Source of the DNA: Acidimicrobiia bacterium
GTDB lineage: Bacteria > Actinomycetota > Acidimicrobiia > IMCC26256 > PALSA-610
Reading direction: 5' to 3'
DNA length: 64,000 nt
Assembly (NCBI GenBank): GCA_027494135.1
Contig: JAOSJK010000001.1
Location: 847,378-911,377 of the forward strand
A program made the position numbers and the translations under genes. This document shows positions 5,817 to 54,981 of the stretch, in pieces. Below the pieces are notes generated by a model. The model ran no database searches. It saw only the letters and a list, made by a program, of their open reading frames with translations, and had not been told where the DNA came from. Positions within the stretch are counted from its first letter, which is position 1; the number at the start of each line of letters is the position of its first letter.

Positions 5817-6464
5817 ATGCTCGACGCTGCTATCCGACCCGCGCGGCACGACGACCTCGACTTCCTCGTGTGGACGATGCTCACCGCGTCGATCTCGCAC
5901 CTGGAGCGCAGCGTTTGGGAGACGCTCTTCGACGCCTCAACCGCCGAGGTCGAGGCGCTGCTCCGAGCCGTCGCCACGTCGGAGAGCACCCACTGGTGCC
6001 ACGTCGATCGATTCTGGATCGCCGAGGCCGGCGGTGTCCCCGCAGCCGCCCTCTCCACCTTCGACCCCGAGGTCGACGGGACCAGGGCGCTCATGGACGA
6101 GATCGCAACCGCCGCGGTCCAAGCGGGCCTCAGCGATTCGCAGCTCACCGGCGCGCTGGAGCGCGGGCAGATCTTCAAGACCTGCTCTCCTTCCGACTAC
6201 CCGTCGTCGTGGGCGATCGAGAACGTCGCCGTCGTCCCCGAGATGCGCGGGCAGGGAGTCATCGACCAGCTCTTCGCGCACGCGCTGCACCTGGGACGTG
6301 ACGAGGGCTACGAGCACGCGCAGATCATGGTCCTTAACGGCAACACGCGCGCCGAGCGCGTGTACCTGCGCAACGGCTTCGACGTTCGCGCCGATTACCG
6401 CGGCCGCGATTTCGAGCAGACCTTCGGCTGCCCCGGCGTCAAGCTCCTCGCCCTCGAGTACTGA
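5817..6464 (+). CDS. GNAT family N-acetyltransferase
   Basis: A 215-residue protein starting 8 bp after a GGAGG site. The acetyl-CoA binding motif A reads VAVVPEMRGQGVIDQLFAHAL (RGQGV matches the Q/R-x-x-G-x-G/A loop). Motif B follows with MVLNGNTRAERVYLRNGFDV, typical of GNAT C-termini. The N-terminal part up to residue 115 is helical and acidic and gives no substrate clue. Family membership is clear; the substrate is not. Confidence 0.85.
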   Translation: MLDAAIRPARHDDLDFLVWTMLTASISHLERSVWETLFDASTAEVEALLRAVATSESTHWCHVDRFWIAEAGGVPAAALSTFDPEVDGTRALMDEIATAAVQAGLSDSQLTGALERGQIFKTCSPSDYPSSWAIENVAVVPEMRGQGVIDQLFAHALHLGRDEGYEHAQIMVLNGNTRAERVYLRNGFDVRADYRGRDFEQTFGCPGVKLLALEY

Positions 6465-6471
6465 CCAACAG

Positions 6472-6522
6472 ACCACGAGCGTCGATAGACCACAAATATT
6501 GTGGTCTATCGACGCTCGTGGT
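6472..6522. repeat. Palindromic repeat family A, copy 2
   Basis: Perfect 23-bp inverted repeat (6472-6494 and 6500-6522) with loop AATAT. It shares the 15-nt arm core CGTCGATAGACCACA with copies 1 and 3. It begins 8 bp after the GNAT stop and ends 45 bp before the molybdopterin oxidoreductase start, so it sits between two co-directional genes like the other copies. Confidence 0.9.
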
Positions 6523-8004: not shown

Positions 8005-9136
8005 GTGCCCGAGCCCACAGCGATCGTCCTCCCAGCAGACTGCCGGCCGTCCGACGGCCGCTTCGGATCCGGTCCCTCCAAGGTGCGCCCGCAGACGATC
8101 GCAGCGCTCGCCGAGGCGGCGCCCGGCTACATGGGCACGAGCCATCGCAAGGAGGCCGTGCGCGGCATCGTGCACCGGGTGCGCGAAGGGCTGGCGTGCC
8201 TCTTCTCGCTGCCGACCGGCTACGAGGTCCTGCTGGGCAACGGCGGCTCCACGTCGTTCTGGGACGCTGCGGCGTTCGGTCTCATCGAACGCCGCAGCCG
8301 GCACCTCGTGATAGGCGAGTTCTCTTCCAAGTTCGCAGCCGTCACGAGGGCCGCCCCCACCTCGAGGATCCCGAAGTGCTGCCCACCGAGCCCGGGATCA
8401 CTCCGGCCACGTTCGACGACGCCGGCCCCGACCTCTACGCATACCCGCAGAACGAGACCTCCACCGGGGTGAGCATCCCCGTCCACCGCCCCGCTTCCGG
8501 CGACGGCCTGATCGCGGTCGACGCGACCTCCGCGGCCGGCGGGCATCGCGTCGATGCGCGCGACTTCGACGTCTACTACTTCGCACCACAGAAGTGCTTC
8601 GCAGGCGACGGTGGCCTGTGGATGCGCTCTGCTCCCCCGCGGGCATCGAGCGCGTCGAGCGCGTCAGGGCCACGGGACGCTGGATGCCTCCGACGCTCGA
8701 CCTCTCGATCGCCCTGGAGAACTCGCGCCTAGACCAGACGTACAACACGCCCGCCCTCGCGACGCTGTTCATGCTCGCGAACCAGATCGAGTGGATGCTC
8801 GACAGCGGCGGGCTCGAGTGGGCGGCGACACGCTGCGATACGTCTTCCGCCACGGTCTACGGATGGGCCGAAGCTCACGCGCACGCGACACCGTTCGTCA
8901 GCGACCCGACGGCGCGCAGTCACGTCACCGCGACCATCGACTTCGACGACACGATCGACACCTCCGCGGTCGCGAGGGTCCTGAGGTCGAACGGCATCGT
9001 CGACACCGAGCCGTATCGAAAGCTCGGTCGCAACCAGCTCCGCATAGCGATGTTCCCGGCGATCGAGCCCGCCGACCTCGCGGTGCTCACCCGGGCGATC
9101 GACTACACGATCGACGAGCTGGCCCGGCTCTCGTAG
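8005..9136 (+). CDS. serC: Phosphoserine aminotransferase (frame broken twice)
   Basis: Three frames together give a normal actinobacterial SerC. The N-terminus reads RFGSGPSKVRPQTI and YMGTSHRKEAVRGIV; the middle gives LYAYPQNETSTGV, VDATSAAGG and VYYFAPQKCFAGDGGLW, with the PLP-binding Lys in PQK; the end gives SRLDQTYNTPALATLFML and YRKLGRNQLRIAMFP. Breaks lie at the CCCCC run 8354-8358 (one more C restores the frame) and near 8622 (one more G restores it). The enzyme makes O-phosphoserine from 3-phosphohydroxypyruvate and glutamate. It lies just upstream of the selenoprotein pair; O-phosphoserine also feeds serine, the carbon source of selenocysteine, but that link is only suggestive. Confidence 0.85.
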
Positions 9137-9196
9137 ACGAACCGACTGAGCTGCACCACTCCTCCTACCGACTCCTCCTACCGACAAGGAGCACGA

Positions 9197-10657
9197 GTGA
9201 CGGACGAGAAGGGCCCTGCACCGGCTCACCTCGGCCTCCCCGACGGCTTGGTGGCCGTGGTCAAGCGCGACTGCCCCACCTGCGTGCTGGTCGAGCCGGT
9301 TCTGCAGGACCTGGCGGAGCGCGCAGCGCTGAAGGTCTACACACAGGACGACCCCACCTTCCCCGAAGGTGTCGACGTCGTCGACGACACCGATCTGGGC
9401 GTCTCTTTCGCACTCGAGATAGAGGCCGTCCCCACTCTGCTCCGGTTCGAGAGGGGCGAGCAGGTCGCGCGCACCGAGGGCTGGCTGCGCGAGCGCTGGG
9501 AGGAGCTGACGGGTGTGACGGGCCTCGGAGACGGCCTCCCCGACTACCGCCCCGGCTGCGGCTCACGCACTCTCGACCCCGATCTCGTCGCCCGCCGCAC
9601 GGCAGAGGCCGGCGCGACGCATCTCCGTTCGCGCCGTGTGACGCTCGGCGACGCCGAGGACGACATGGAGGCGACCTACGAGCGCGGCTGGTCGGACGGT
9701 CTGCCAGTGGTGCCTCCCACCCCCGAACGCGTAGCACGCATGCTCACCGGAACGACCAGAGACCCCGGCGAGGTGGTGGCGACGATCCCGCCCGACCTGG
9801 TGGAGTGCACCGTCGAGAAGGTCGCCGTCAACGCGGTTATGGCGGGGTGCAGGCCCGAGTACCTGCCGGTGGTGCTCTCGGCGGTCGCGGCGTCGTGCAC
9901 CGACACGTTCAACATGCACGGTCTCCTCTGCACCACGTGGTTCTCAGGACCGCTCGTCGTCGTGAACGGACCGATCGCGACCGCCATCGGGATGAACTCC
10001 GGGGTGAATGCTCTCGGCCAGGGGAACCGCGCCAACGCGACGATCGGTCGTGCGCTTCAGCTCGTGGTCCGCAACGTGGGCGGCGGGCGCCCCGGCGAGG
10101 TGGATCGCGCGACTCTCGGGCAGCCGGGCAAGTACACGTTCTGCTTCGCCGAGCGGGAGGAGGACTCACCCTGGGAGCCGCTGCACGTGGAGCGCGGCTT
10201 CGACGCGACGCAGTCGACGGTGACGCTCTTCGCCGCCGAGGGCGTGCGCGGCGTCGTCGACCAGATGTCCCGCGCCCCCGAGTCGCTCGCGAGGTCATTC
10301 GCCGCCTGCCTCGCCACTGTCGCTCACCCGAAGCTGCCGGTGGTGTGGGACGCCATGCTGGTCGTCTCGCCCGAGCACGCCCGCGTGTTCCGCGAGGCCG
10401 GGTGGTCGAAGGCGCGACTCCAGGAGGAGATCCGCTCGCTGCTGCTGCTGCGCGGCGAGGACTTCGTCCACGGCGCGGGTGGGATCGCCGAGGGGATGCC
10501 CGCCGCGTGGGCTCAGACGGAGTTACCCAAGTTCCGCGACGGCGGACTGCTCATCGTCCACGCCGGTGGAGGCGCCGGGCTCTTCTCGGGCATCATCGGC
10601 GGATGGGCCAGCGGTGCCATCGGCAGCGACCCCGTGACCATGGAGGTATCGACGTGA
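9197..10657 (+). CDS. Thioredoxin-like fusion protein, partner of UGSC selenoprotein
   Basis: A 486-residue two-part protein. Residues 1-110 look like a thioredoxin fold with the redox motif CPTC at about 26-29 (VVKRDCPTCVLVEPVLQDL) and a cis-Pro segment EIEAVPTLLRFERGE. Residues 150-486 form a large conserved domain with GWSDGLPVVPPTPERVARML, EKVAVNAVMAGCRPEYLPVV, NGPIATAIGMNSGVNALGQG and LGQPGKYTFCFAE. I recall this domain next to UGSC-family genes in other bacteria, but its function is unknown to me. It starts at GTG after an AAGGAG, and its TGA overlaps the next start (GTGA), implying translational coupling and perhaps a complex with the selenoprotein. Confidence 0.72.
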   Translation: MTDEKGPAPAHLGLPDGLVAVVKRDCPTCVLVEPVLQDLAERAALKVYTQDDPTFPEGVDVVDDTDLGVSFALEIEAVPTLLRFERGEQVARTEGWLRERWEELTGVTGLGDGLPDYRPGCGSRTLDPDLVARRTAEAGATHLRSRRVTLGDAEDDMEATYERGWSDGLPVVPPTPERVARMLTGTTRDPGEVVATIPPDLVECTVEKVAVNAVMAGCRPEYLPVVLSAVAASCTDTFNMHGLLCTTWFSGPLVVVNGPIATAIGMNSGVNALGQGNRANATIGRALQLVVRNVGGGRPGEVDRATLGQPGKYTFCFAEREEDSPWEPLHVERGFDATQSTVTLFAAEGVRGVVDQMSRAPESLARSFAACLATVAHPKLPVVWDAMLVVSPEHARVFREAGWSKARLQEEIRSLLLLRGEDFVHGAGGIAEGMPAAWAQTELPKFRDGGLLIVHAGGGAGLFSGIIGGWASGAIGSDPVTMEVST

Positions 10658-11193
10658 CCGGCTCCGGCAACGCGCGGATCCTGATCGACCCCACCGGAGA
10701 GCGAACAACCGCGACGCGAGAGCGTGCACCGCGCCCCCCGTCGGTCGACGGCAGGGTGGTGGGCCTCCTCGACATCGCGAAGCCCCGGGGCAGCGTCTTC
10801 CTCGATCGTGTGGCGGAGCTCCTGGTCGAGCGGGGCGCTCGCGTGGAGCGGTACTCGAAGCCCACGTTCACGAAGCCGGCACCGGTCGACCTCCGTCGCG
10901 AGATCTCGACGAAGTGCGACGTCGTGATCGAGGCTCTCGCCGATTGAGGATCGTGTACGTCGTGCAGTGTGCACGACACCGTGAACCTCGAGTCGGCCGG
11001 TGTCCCCACGGTCTTCGTGGCGTCCGACGAGTTCATCGACGCAGCGGCGGCTCAGGCGACCGCGCTCGGAGCCGACCCCGCGCGCGTCTTCGTCGCGCAT
11101 CCGATCCAGGACAGGACCGACGACGAGGTGCGCGCGCTGGCCGACTCCGCCATCGACGCCCTGGTGGCCGGGCTCACAGCTCCCACTCCCTGA
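10654..11193 (+). CDS. UGSC-family selenoprotein (in-frame TGA = Sec98)
   Basis: About 179 residues, read from GTG 10654 through an in-frame TGA at 10945-10947. The same frame is open on both sides, so no frameshift is needed. Before the TGA: ILIDPTGERTT, GRVVGLLDIAKPRGSVFLDR and KCDVVIEALAD. After it: GSCTSCSVHDTVNLESAG, then PTVFVASDEF and VFVAHPIQDRTDDEVR. This gives the family motif U-G-S-C. A hairpin directly downstream (10959-10977) fits bacterial SECIS geometry. The start overlaps the stop of the thioredoxin-like partner by 4 bp. I infer a redox selenoprotein; the reaction is unknown. A TGC-to-TGA base-calling error is the main alternative. The Sec machinery (selA/B/C/D) is not in the window. 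Confidence 0.85.
10959..10977 (+). promoter_or_regulatory. SECIS-like hairpin for Sec insertion
   Basis: Perfect 8-bp stem, GTCGTGCA (10959-10966) paired with TGCACGAC (10970-10977), with a GTG triloop at 10967-10969. The apical loop begins with G and lies 19 nt after the last base of the TGA at 10945-10947. This agrees with the known bacterial SECIS pattern of a short stem-loop inside the coding region just 3' of UGA with a G early in the loop. The codons across it are also those expected of the UGSC family. Confidence 0.75.
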
Positions 11194-11203
11194 CCCAGCC
11201 CGC

Positions 11204-13545
11204 TCAGGGGGCGAGGCAGGGTTCGCCCCCGCAGACCTCGATGAGCATCCCGTCGACGTGCAGGAACTCGCCCTTCTGCGCCCTCGCGCTCGGCTCGTCC
11301 CTAGGCTTGCCGTGTGGATCGGACCCGTAGTCCGGCGGTCGAGGCGGCTGGTTCTCCACGGGCGGCGCCGGGTTGCCGCTGTCCCAGACGACGAGCGCCG
11401 AACCGCCGAACGGGTAGCCCGGCACCTCGGGTATCCCCAGAACGGGTCGACGTCGGTGTGCCGGCCATCGGCTAGGGCGGGCTGCACGACGTGCGCCCCG
11501 ATCGTGCGGGCCTCGATCTCGGTCGCGAGGTTCGCCACCTGGTGGTCGCCGAACGCCTCGTGTATCAGCACCTGGTGCGCGGGTGTGCCCGGATACGGAT
11601 CGTCGGTCATGTGCCACGCGTAGCCGTTCGTCTCGCCGCGGTCCCACAGCATCTGGATCATGATGATGCCCATGGAGCGGTCCATCTCGTCCGGGTAGTT
11701 CGGGTTGAGGATCGTGGCGTAGAGGTCCCAGTCGACGCTGCGGTCGAGGAGGAGGCTGTAGTTCATGCCCGGTACCCCGAGCGCGGCACGCGTCCACTCC
11801 GTGGAGACCGCCGTCGCGGCACCGCCGCTGATGCCTCCCTGGCTTATCCCCTCGTAGTACACCTCGCCGGGGACGAGGACCGACGAGTCGGAAGCGCCGG
11901 CTCGGAACGCCGGATCCGACGCGAAGCCGTTGGGGTCCCTCAGGAGACGTGCGAGGAAGAGAGTGTTCAGGATCCCCTGCTGCAGCCTGTCGGCGACCGT
12001 TGGGAACTCCGACAGGTCGGTCAGGACCCCTACGACGTGCCCGACGTCGGCATCGGACATGCCGATGGTGTCGGTGCCGCAGTAGACCATGCGGTTCTCG
12101 TTCGCCATCAGGAGCTGACTCGTCGAGCTCGCCTGCGTGTAGGAGCCGAGCAGGCCGTGGCCGTACACCACGCCCCGGCCCGGTAAGACAGGATCTTCCC
12201 CGTGCTCGGTCACCGAGCGCGGGATGTTGCAGACGAAGCGCGCCGTGTACGAGCCGTTCCTCACCGGCAGCGCGTCGGGGCCGGCACCCGACGCGTACTT
12301 GTATCGCGATCCGGGCGCTCCCGTACCGGTCAGGTAGAGCGGCACCTCGAATGTGCCCGTGACCCGGCGATACACGTGATCGACGGCGACTTCGTCGTTC
12401 TGGACCGCGGTGACCGTGAAGTCGGGCGCGCCTCCTCCGAGAGACGCGAATGCATCGTCGCGGATGTGCAGCATCCGCTCACTCAGGTTGCGTTCGCTCG
12501 CGACCGTGAAGTCCCACGCGAGGTAGAGATCACCGCGGGCGATGCCGGCGTCGGCCAGGGTCGAGAAGATCTCCTCCATGTGAGGCCGACGGTCTTCGAC
12601 GGCGTCGATGAAGGTCGGATACAGACCGCGGTAGACGCGGAACGCCCGGCTCGGCCTGATCGTCTCGCCCGCCGAGTCCTTCAGCCGGCGCATGGCGAAG
12701 ATGTAGCGGTGGCCCTCCCGGAAGTTGATCCCCGGGCGGATGAAGAGCGCTCTGGTGGCGTCGCTCGTCGCCTTGCTGTCGAGCTCCGCCCAGACGGGGG
12801 TGACGTTCGAGCGTGTCGGCGTCGATCACGACGATCGGGGCGTCGGCATCGAGCGATCTCTGGATGTCGGTGACGGGCGCGGCCCCCGTCTCCGTCAGGT
12901 CGATGCCCGGTACGTACGCGACCCCGGCCGAGCCCGGGCTGAACCCGTCGTTCCTGTTCCACTCGGTGGGATCGACGTGCACGCCGGCGGCGTTGACGGG
13001 CGTTGCCCCTGCTGCGATGTGGACCCTCCTACCGGTGTCCGAGGTGGGGTCGGCGACCGTGTAGTAGTCGTTGGGGAACGGCAGGAGGCACTTCGTGCGC
13101 GAGAGGAAGTCGCAGCCGTCGGTGGCGTCCACACGGATGTTCGGCTCCCATGACCAGGCGACCGACGCGACGTCGCGCTCGGCGCCCTTCGCCGCCCGGA
13201 CGCTCACGTCTAGCCGCGTGACCCCGACGCTCAGGTCGTCTCCCGTGAAGCCCGCCGTTGCGCCGCCGGGGGAGACGGTGAAGCGGTCGGTCACGTCGAC
13301 CGCCTCCGACGGGATGCCCGTCTGCATCGAGGCCCGGAAGGTTGCCGGTGCCACCCCCGCGCCGAAGTCGACCTCCACGTCTACCGCTCCGCTGCGCGGG
13401 GCCTGACTGAGGTTCGCCGGAGCCACGACTACGACCGCGCCGCCGGGGCCCCCGGGTTGGTGTCGTACGCCTGGATCCACGCGCAGCCCGACGCCACGAG
13501 GGCGACCACCAGGGCCGGGACCGCTGCTCCGCCGCGCCGTCTCAT
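11204..13545 (-). CDS. Secreted alpha/beta-hydrolase-like lipoprotein (frame broken)
   Basis: Large exported protein of about 780 residues assembled from several frames. ATG at 13545 gives MRRRGGAAVPALVVALVASG-Cys, a lipoprotein signal. The middle contains NDYYTVADPTSDTGRRVHI and INFREGHRYIFAMRRL. The catalytic half has GVVYGHGLLGSYTQASS and YYEGISQGGISGGA, where GISQG is a nucleophile elbow, and HQVLIHEAFGDHQV near a possible acid/His. It ends VDGMLIEVCGGEPCLAP. Breaks lie at about 13449-13453 (5 C; one more restores), 12796-12800 (5 G; one fewer restores) and about 11431 (one more restores). Probable secreted esterase or lipase; substrate unknown. Confidence 0.7.
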
Positions 13546-20706: not shown

Positions 20707-20742
20707 GTGGAGGTGATGGTGGAGGTGATGGTGGAGGTGATG
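20707..20742. repeat. Triplicated 12-mer at tRNA-Ala 3' end
   Basis: Three exact tandem copies of GTGGAGGTGATG. On the minus strand the unit covers the end of the T-stem, the 3' acceptor strand, the discriminator base and the start of CCA of the adjacent tRNA-Ala. The extra copies lie 3' of the tRNA. Likely replication slippage, or a scar of repeated recombination at a tRNA 3' end. Confidence 0.85.
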
Positions 20743-20805
20743 GGATTTGAACCCACGGCTTCTACGTTGCGAACGTAGCGCTCTGCCGGACTGAGCTACA
20801 CCCCG
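20729..20805 (-). tRNA. tRNA-Ala (anticodon CGC)
   Basis: Cloverleaf on the minus strand. The anticodon arm is CTACG-TTCGCAA-CGTAG, giving anticodon CGC. D-arm is GCTC...GAGC and T-arm GTGGG-TTCAAAT-CCCAT. The acceptor keeps a G3-U70 pair, the main alanine identity element. C1-C72 is mispaired; one more G in the GGGG run would give a perfect stem, consistent with the homopolymer errors elsewhere. A CCA is encoded, continuing into the 12-mer repeats. Confidence 0.9.
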
Positions 20806-47127: not shown

Positions 47128-47200
47128 GCCGGGTTAGCTCAGTCGGCAGAGCATTCGCCTTGTAAGCGAACGGTCGTCGGTTCGATTCCGACACCCGGCT
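47128..47200 (+). tRNA. tRNA-Thr (anticodon TGT)
   Basis: Acceptor GCCGGGT pairs with ACCCGGC. D-arm is GCTC...GAGC and the anticodon arm TTCGC-CTTGTAA-GCGAA, giving TGT. The T-arm is GTCGG-TTCGATT-CCGAC. The discriminator is T, and CCA is not encoded (CCG follows), unlike the tRNA-Ala in this window. Confidence 0.95.
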
Positions 47201-47297
47201 CCGAAGCGCGCTCCCGCTACCCGACACGCCCTCTCGTCGGGGTCCCCAGGCGGAGATGCTTGTAATTCGCGCGCCACCCGGCCAACATCGACCTCCA

Positions 47298-54810: not shown

Positions 54811-54878
54811 CGCGCGAGCGTAGGGGGCAGGGCGGGGCTGCGCCCCGGAGGCGGTGTTACGCTTCCCGTCGAACACGC

Positions 54879-54975
54879 GCTCATCCAGAGCGGCCGAGGG
54901 ACAGGCCCTGTGACGCCGCGGCAACCAGTCGCCCGGGACTCCGGGTGGCCAGGTGCCAATGCCTGACCGATGAGC
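54879..54975 (+). promoter_or_regulatory. SAM riboswitch (S-box class, SAM-I/SAM-IV type)
   Basis: P1 is GCTCATC (54879-54885) with GATGAGC (54969-54975). The core CCAGAGCGGCCGAGGGACAG, then GGCCCTGTGACGCCGCGGCA and ACC, followed by GGTGCCAATGCCTGAC, matches the S-adenosylmethionine-binding consensus (AGAG, GAGGGA, GGCCC, GCAACC, GGTGCCAA). It lies 96 bp upstream of the threonine-synthase-like gene on the same strand. SAM-IV is usual in Actinobacteria; the exact class needs a covariance search. Confidence 0.92.
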
Positions 54976-54981
54976 AGCCAA

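Follow-up and report, generated by a model that had tools for sequence, protein, structure and literature searches.

The stretch analysed here, referred to as the window, comprises 64,000 nucleotides from an Acidimicrobiia bacterium (GenBank assembly GCA_027494135.1, contig JAOSJK010000001.1, positions 847,378 to 911,377 of the forward strand). Two adjoining genes on its plus strand are the subject of this analysis: a UGSC-family gene with an in-frame TGA that comparison supports as a selenocysteine (Sec) codon, and a partner gene immediately upstream that carries a thioredoxin domain. The UGSC gene is a new member of a family that has been in print since at least 2008. The more interesting part is the partner, together with an apparently Sec-containing form of it in genomes of a related family (f42), both of which lie outside the preliminary description of this DNA. 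The features on which the argument rests are the following:

9197..10657, plus strand: partner gene, with a thioredoxin domain and a conserved domain; it adjoins the UGSC gene upstream in 77/80 named relatives
9245..9511, plus strand: thioredoxin domain of the partner, with CPTC, about residues 17-105 (TIGR01068, PDB profile, Foldseek)
9272-9274, plus strand: codon of Cys26, in the CPTC of the partner
9281-9283, plus strand: codon of Cys29, in the CPTC of the partner
9557..9559, plus strand: codon of Cys121 (PGCGS), invariant in 51 aligned partners
9644..10654, plus strand: C-terminal conserved domain of the partner, about residues 150-486, with an invariant Cys218
10654..11193, plus strand: UGSC-family selenoprotein gene (predicted), 179 residues when the TGA is translated as U; GTG start, stop TGA at 11191-11193
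10945..10947, plus strand: in-frame TGA, predicted Sec98 of the UGSC motif; TGA in 80/80 named relatives
10959..10977, plus strand: putative apical hairpin of a bacterial selenocysteine insertion sequence (SECIS), with an 8-bp stem and the loop GUG at 10967-10969, 19 nt after the TGA

The UGSC gene and its in-frame TGA

Apart from a single internal TGA, the frame at 10654-11193 (plus strand) is open throughout, with no shift, and its translation near this codon reads ...VIEALAD-U-GSCTSCSVHD..., which places U at position 98 of 179 residues. The preliminary description had seen in this frame a UGSC-family selenoprotein with the pattern U-G-S-C-T-S-C; the open frame and the GSCTSC that follows U98 agree with that account, and two curated models, each above its cut-off, bear out the family assignment. 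PF24696 (UGSC family, Pfam) matches with an E-value of 9.2e-48 (163.1 bits vs a cut-off of 25) in a single alignment that runs across the TGA, from residue 10 to 175 and from profile position 2 to 171 of 172. Similarly, NF041046, named “UGSC family (seleno)protein” in NCBIfam, matches with an E-value of 2.4e-47 (160.7 bits vs a cut-off of 125) over profile positions 2-146 of 147. Both models thus place the window gene in the known UGSC (seleno)protein family.

A standard gene caller had been expected to split such a gene, and the mechanical list of open reading frames (ORFs) does exactly this: an ORF at 8554-10947 ends at the UGSC TGA, and the remainder appears as a separate frame of 74 residues at 10969-11193. 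A comparable case is found on the Acidovorax sp. T1 plasmid p2-T1 (L145), where the annotated “hypothetical protein” stops at the UGSC TGA (6211-6213) and the frame (5917-6480 and on) continues past it, encoding the remainder of UGSC and, joined to this, the partner domain. UGSC-type genes get lost in annotation, this deposited plasmid included.

Comparative evidence supports the reading of TGA 10945-10947 as Sec98, as the preliminary description had proposed. The named relatives are the 80 best-ranked of 394 confirmed stretches, by similarity to the window protein; their labels are mostly Acidimicrobiia or another Actinomycetota lineage, with some Myxococcota or Deltaproteobacteria, and every one of them carries TGA at this codon. 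When 296 genomes of the class were searched with NF041046, 104 had a match and 76 had one above the cut-off, with up to eight matches per genome; the matches listed contain either no stop or one internal TGA each, and TAA or TAG in none. Among 40 diverged paralogues, hand-picked as distant matches from the class listing, the Sec column is occupied by TGA in 28 and by Cys in 12, and the motif of the 28 TGA-bearing genes includes two UGAC and one UAAC. Exchange of Sec and Cys at one column is a classic sign of selenocysteine, and because these diverged paralogues share such a column, the alignment of Sec and Cys homologues that had been suggested as a check favours decoding of the TGA as Sec.

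The distribution of the decoding machinery points in the same direction. Class genomes with a TGA-containing UGSC gene among the matches listed encode selA in 80 of 82 cases (the two without it being G188 and G291), vs 121 of the 214 other genomes (Fisher p 4e-14), and those with only Cys forms among the matches listed encode it in 3 of 11; for the comparison of selA with TGA-containing UGSC genes, 12 weak selA rows were set aside.

The sequence behind the TGA folds into a hairpin with the strands GUCGUGCA and UGCACGAC around the loop GUG. According to a 2026 review, bacterial SECIS elements (bSECIS) have a loop of 3-9 nt, a stem of 4-16 bp, a G at loop position 1 or 2, a distance of 16-37 nt from the UGA and a minimum free energy (MFE) of at most -7.5 (PMC13188914). 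The window hairpin lies within these published limits, with 8 bp, GUG and a spacing of 19 nt, and the MFE is -15.5 kcal/mol for the 51 nt behind the TGA and -23.2 for 59 nt. All 81 close UGSC genes, the 80 relatives and the window gene, have a hairpin that keeps to the same limits with a stem of 6 or more base pairs. Codon usage is nearly frozen over this segment: codons 102-108 have a mean codon entropy of 0.09 bits, compared with 1.12 at 58 other conserved-residue positions (positions with at least 95% of one residue in at least 70 rows, Met and Trp excluded), and TGC (Cys104), AGT (Ser), GTG (Val) and GAC (Asp) are identical in 81/81 genes. One stem pair changes from G-C to A-U in four relatives and to G-U in one, with the protein unaltered.

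The partner gene and its second TGA

The partner gene ends in a TGA stop (10655-10657) that overlaps the GTG start of the UGSC gene (10654) by four bases, and the same overlap is possible in 39 of the 77 loci with a partner if, among the candidate starts, the one closest to the stop is chosen. In 71 of the 80 named relatives, the thioredoxin part is in the same frame as the rest of the partner. In two of the three relatives without a partner match (L104 and L116), the UGSC gene begins 27 and 61 bases into the locus, too near its upstream limit for a partner to be visible; the third (L134) has upstream sequence and no partner match. Across the class, where the first 80 UGSC matches listed (at least 131.8 bits) were compared with part of the listed partner rows, 77 of these 80 top-scoring matches have the partner directly upstream on the same strand. 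The others are in G267, at 230 bases from the contig start, and in G205 and G270. Clustering of neighbouring genes likewise places the partner cluster in 77/81 loci, window included.

The N-terminal part of the partner is a distant thioredoxin, with the fold and a CxxC motif. It is described as distant because its score with TIGR01068 (E-value 4.2e-4, 20.5 of 96.8 bits) is below the cut-off; PDB thioredoxins are matched by the partner profile with E-values down to 1.1e-4, and by Foldseek with a probability of 1.00 and E-values of 0.006 or worse. Both Cys26 and Cys29 are invariant in the aligned partners (the alignments hold 51 of 72 fused partners and 48 of 81 UGSC sequences). No Pfam or NCBIfam model matches the C-terminal domain. 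The Foldseek search of the partner also returned fumarase rows, which are doubtful.

The same parts recur in other arrangements on plasmids, of which three of seven matches were inspected. The Acidovorax plasmid has a TGA-bearing UGSC that runs in frame into the partner domain (49% identity over 264 residues); the Arthrobacter plasmid has, in this order, thioredoxin reductase (trxB), thioredoxin (trxA), a protein with the domain (37%) and UGSC with Cys; and on the Natrinema plasmid, the domain protein (48%) comes after a Cys form of UGSC. Thioredoxin, domain and UGSC are therefore joined and ordered in varied ways, which suggests one functional unit fed by thioredoxin. The three plasmid copies adjoin genes of the phosphoenolpyruvate (PEP)-mutase type, or for phosphosulfolactate synthase, hydroxymethylglutaryl-coenzyme A (HMG-CoA) lyase or CoA-transferase. 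Going by the neighbours of distant copies, a first guess at candidate substrates would be 2-oxo acids and sulfonated three-carbon acids.

A second TGA occurs within the partner itself. Four genomes of family f42 have one TGA inside a full-length partner and a further search added two (L280-L285); of the f42 genomes for which a full-length partner is listed, 6/6 have the TGA, and it stands at the codon of Cys121. All six read FKPG-U-GS in a long open frame and have downstream a UGSC gene with its own TGA. Behind the partner TGA, at 20 nt, lies a hairpin with the loop CGGGC, of 8 bp in five genomes and 6 bp in one, and nearly identical across the six. As a control, the hairpin test was applied to 72 Cys forms of the partner, of which 13 pass with a 6-bp stem as the threshold and 2 with an 8-bp stem; the window partner, itself a Cys121 form, fails. 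Judged from these sequences, the Sec-bearing f42 partner is apparently a second, undescribed selenoprotein. The available part of the selenoprotein table in the 2026 review has no row that fits it (PMC13188914), a literature search for “PGUGS” found no paper, and the f42 partner at L243 has no NCBIfam match at an E-value of 0.01, NF041383 included. Because Sec replaces Cys121 in the f42 partners, Cys121 of the window partner is a likely redox residue.

Partner TGAs in G076, G276 and G027 were rejected as candidates, being at the edge and outside the conserved gene. The rows outside the stop analysis are those with a single TGA in G412 and G419, with TAA or TAG in G424, G377, G390, G076 and G119, and with several stops in G340.

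Fold, proposed chemistry and alternative explanations

The AlphaFold model of UGSC (mean predicted local distance difference test score, pLDDT, 93.5) has five strands alternating with helices; Sec98 lies after the third strand and before the helix that follows it, and Cys101 is the last residue of U-G-S-C. Its top PDB rows include MttC, LarB, flavodoxin and lumazine synthase, among others, with template modelling (TM) scores up to 0.51; thioredoxin, peroxiredoxin and glutaredoxin are not among the best 50 rows, and a PDB search with the UGSC profile returned nothing below an E-value of 0.45. In this model, UGSC looks flavodoxin-like, not thioredoxin-like. A thioredoxin-like fold had been guessed for the family in 2008 (PMC2398784), a view that we disfavour because the model is flavodoxin-like and its best 50 rows contain no thioredoxin.

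Around the Sec residue, the sequence of UGSC has a suggestive likeness to GrdB and PrdB. The models of these families give weak echoes, such as TIGR01917 with 14.1 bits vs a cut-off of 602.2, and UGSC has no match above the cut-off of any of them: TIGR04483 is not listed at an E-value of 1, nor PF07355 at 5. PF07355 and TIGR04483 have no match in the host genome. Matches to PrdB-like proteins occur in 92/296 class genomes, none of which clears the family cut-off, and the host is not one of these genomes. When UGSC was aligned by hhalign with PrdB-like proteins of the class (19 of 25 loci), the E-value was 0.0015 with a probability of 16.7%, and the profile alignment scored 28.1 vs at most 21.65 in 60 column shuffles, with Sec on Sec and Cys on Cys. 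These PrdB-like proteins of class genomes (L177-L201) are distant, and most of the listed rows have one in-frame TGA.

We propose, with a probability of roughly 0.7, that UGSC is a SECIS-decoded Sec98 protein that receives electrons from its thioredoxin-fused partner and acts as a small-substrate reductase resembling GrdB and PrdB in outline. The TGA would be decoded through SelA, SelB and tRNA-Sec together with the hairpin just behind it, as the comparisons indicate; pairs of SelB and SECIS can be specific to a lineage. Electrons would pass from the CPTC of the partner thioredoxin to Sec98 and Cys101, perhaps with Cys121 as an intermediate, and this pair may then reduce a small organic substrate held by UGSC, by the C-terminal domain of the partner, or by both. 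GrdB (glycine) and PrdB (D-proline) are thioredoxin-linked Sec reductases that work similarly, and we do not equate UGSC with either of them. Comparison supports the Sec residue, the partnership, the fold model and the conserved redox residues; the order of electron transfer and the class of substrate are what we infer from them.

The case for the partnership rests on the adjacency in the named relatives and in the top class matches, on the four-base overlap and on the varied joins of the same parts, and the redox route is proposed because the CxxC motif is invariant and Cys121 becomes Sec in all six listed f42 partners. The most likely role of UGSC is that of a thioredoxin-fed selenol reductase. 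On balance, we also lean towards a broader view, in which UGSC and the thioredoxin-fused partner form a selenium reductase module that has so far gone unrecognised and that, in one lineage, has a selenoprotein as its second subunit too, with a relay that would run from the thioredoxin CxxC to Cys/Sec121, to Sec98/Cys101 and to the substrate.

Several observations weigh against this proposal. Beyond the partner, no neighbour cluster is present in half of the loci, as counted on raw frames with shadow frames included. In the Foldseek comparison of the partner with the PDB, no row has an E-value of 0.001 or below, and the C-terminal domain has no confident relative there. The likeness to GrdB and PrdB is likewise open to doubt: their scores are far below the cut-offs of those families, the hhalign probability falls from 16.7% to 1.7% with a narrow alignment, models of other, unrelated families give echoes of similar or greater strength (PRK08931 with an E-value of 0.016, PF01497 with 0.0084), and homology is not established. 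As for the hairpin, the single-sequence fold stands out from shuffles only mildly, with a z-score of -1.55 and 14/200 shuffles equally stable; RNAalifold gives six pairs, one of them covarying, and a covariation term of -0.1; and among diverged UGSC genes the hairpin test is passed by 21/28 Sec forms and by 5/12 Cys forms. Finally, selA is frame-broken in the host assembly, which is 77.5% complete, and selD was not found in it.

The strongest of the alternatives, which we nonetheless regard as unlikely, is that UGSC is a general thiol oxidoreductase or antioxidant, active in disulfide, peroxide or thiol repair without a dedicated substrate and recycled by the partner. Such a role would agree with the thioredoxin domain of the partner and with the view that most uncharacterised selenoproteins are redox proteins (PMC13188914). 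However, the flavodoxin-like model and the lack of thioredoxin, peroxiredoxin or glutaredoxin among its best PDB rows argue against it, and multiple copies per genome, together with plasmid copies in catabolic-looking clusters, fit specific substrates better. We favour a substrate enzyme over a general redox protein because the plasmid copies adjoin genes of the PEP-mutase type and the others named above.

Far less probable is that the gene is a real selenoprotein gene in a host that is losing Sec decoding, with selD gone, selA broken and the protein no longer made. The preliminary description had named selA, selB, tRNA-Sec and selD as the genes to look for; the first three were found, selA in pieces, and selD was not. 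The selA match (E-value 6.9e-100) consists of three pieces at C1:1022593-1023891 in which the frame changes twice through apparent indels, and these two features, the broken selA and the missing selD, are what speaks for a loss of decoding. On the other side, selB is a single open frame directly behind selA (323 bits), tRNA-Sec scores 58.3 bits vs a gathering line of 47 and has the anticodon TCA, and UGSC and its hairpin are intact. Moreover, of 14 family genomes searched, with the host genome among them, 11 have selD over the cut-off. One gene flanks selD in 6/10 loci of relatives, and it too was not found in the host assembly with a query that had no positive control. The missing selD is likelier an assembly gap than a loss, because the assembly is incomplete, another gene in the window is frame-broken and the selD-flanking gene is missing as well. 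A selD candidate of 27.4 bits was rejected, its frame being read, without a family search, as PurL of purine synthesis.

An assembly error that substituted TGA for a Cys codon is hardly credible: apparent indels do occur in the window and the genome (the split SerC-like gene and the three pieces of selA), but the same TGA stands in all 80 relatives, the hairpin codons behind it are nearly frozen, and the control Cys121 forms of the partner pass the hairpin test in only 13/72 cases at 6 bp and 2/72 at 8 bp. A true stop, whether in a pseudogene or behind a 97-residue protein followed by a separate 74-residue frame, has the mechanical ORF split on its side and is just as implausible, since protein conservation continues through the TGA, TAA or TAG is present in none of the relatives listed, and Cys occupies the site in 12/40 diverged paralogues.

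The remaining features of the window belong to its wider surroundings. Upstream of the partner lies a SerC-like gene (8005-9133; phosphoserine aminotransferase by our own reading), split over two frames, apparently by an indel somewhere from about 8470 to 8593, and downstream a convergent gene on the minus strand (11204-12693) has an apparent frame change near 11440, as seen from two overlapping ORFs. Elsewhere in the window are:

20729-20805, minus strand: tRNA-Ala (cgc)
47128-47202: tRNA-Thr (tgt)
54878-54976: S-adenosylmethionine (SAM) riboswitch aptamer, 69.7 bits

Comparison with known systems

The UGSC family was reported as a major selenoprotein family in Global Ocean Sampling data (PMC2398784), is also named in algal selenoproteomes (PMC7539508) and was listed as uncharacterised in function in 2026 (PMC13188914). 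The window gene has in common with the published family its sequence, the U-G-S-C motif and the SECIS element, and the difference lies in the fold, thioredoxin-like in the guess of 2008 and flavodoxin-like in the model presented here. A fusion of UGSC with a domain called “Unknown_1” was also reported in 2008 (PMC2398784), and the C-terminal domain of the partner is probably that domain. The Acidovorax plasmid, with UGSC in frame with the domain of the window partner, is like this reported fusion; in the window, by contrast, the domain is fused to thioredoxin and encoded by a separate upstream gene. In the parts of the UGSC family literature available to us, we found no mention of a thioredoxin-fused partner gene. 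The context described here, with its near-fixed thioredoxin partner, a revised fold and a second site at which Sec and Cys are exchanged, names a likely electron donor and residues suited to mutation, and the function of UGSC becomes testable with two purified proteins.

Two other groups of selenoproteins recall the f42 form of the partner. Its PG-U resembles the VPGU of the VPGUxxT thioredoxin-like protein (NF041383). Sec-containing thioredoxins (UxxC) likewise place a thioredoxin-type domain in a selenoprotein system; however, both Cys of the thioredoxin motif are retained in all 51 aligned partners, and the predicted Sec of the f42 form replaces Cys121, outside the thioredoxin motif.

GrdB and PrdB (PF07355, TIGR01917, TIGR04483) share with UGSC a UxxC(xxC) Sec site after a strand and a weak profile similarity that is in register, and for GrdB the likeness may extend to the thioredoxin-linked reductive chemistry of glycine reductase (PMC13188914). 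They differ in that UGSC scores below the cut-offs of their models, and the PrdB-like proteins differ further in that the window partner gene has no profile likeness to them. With glycine reductase itself, the proposed module would have in common a relay fed by thioredoxin, and it would differ from it in using another partner domain.

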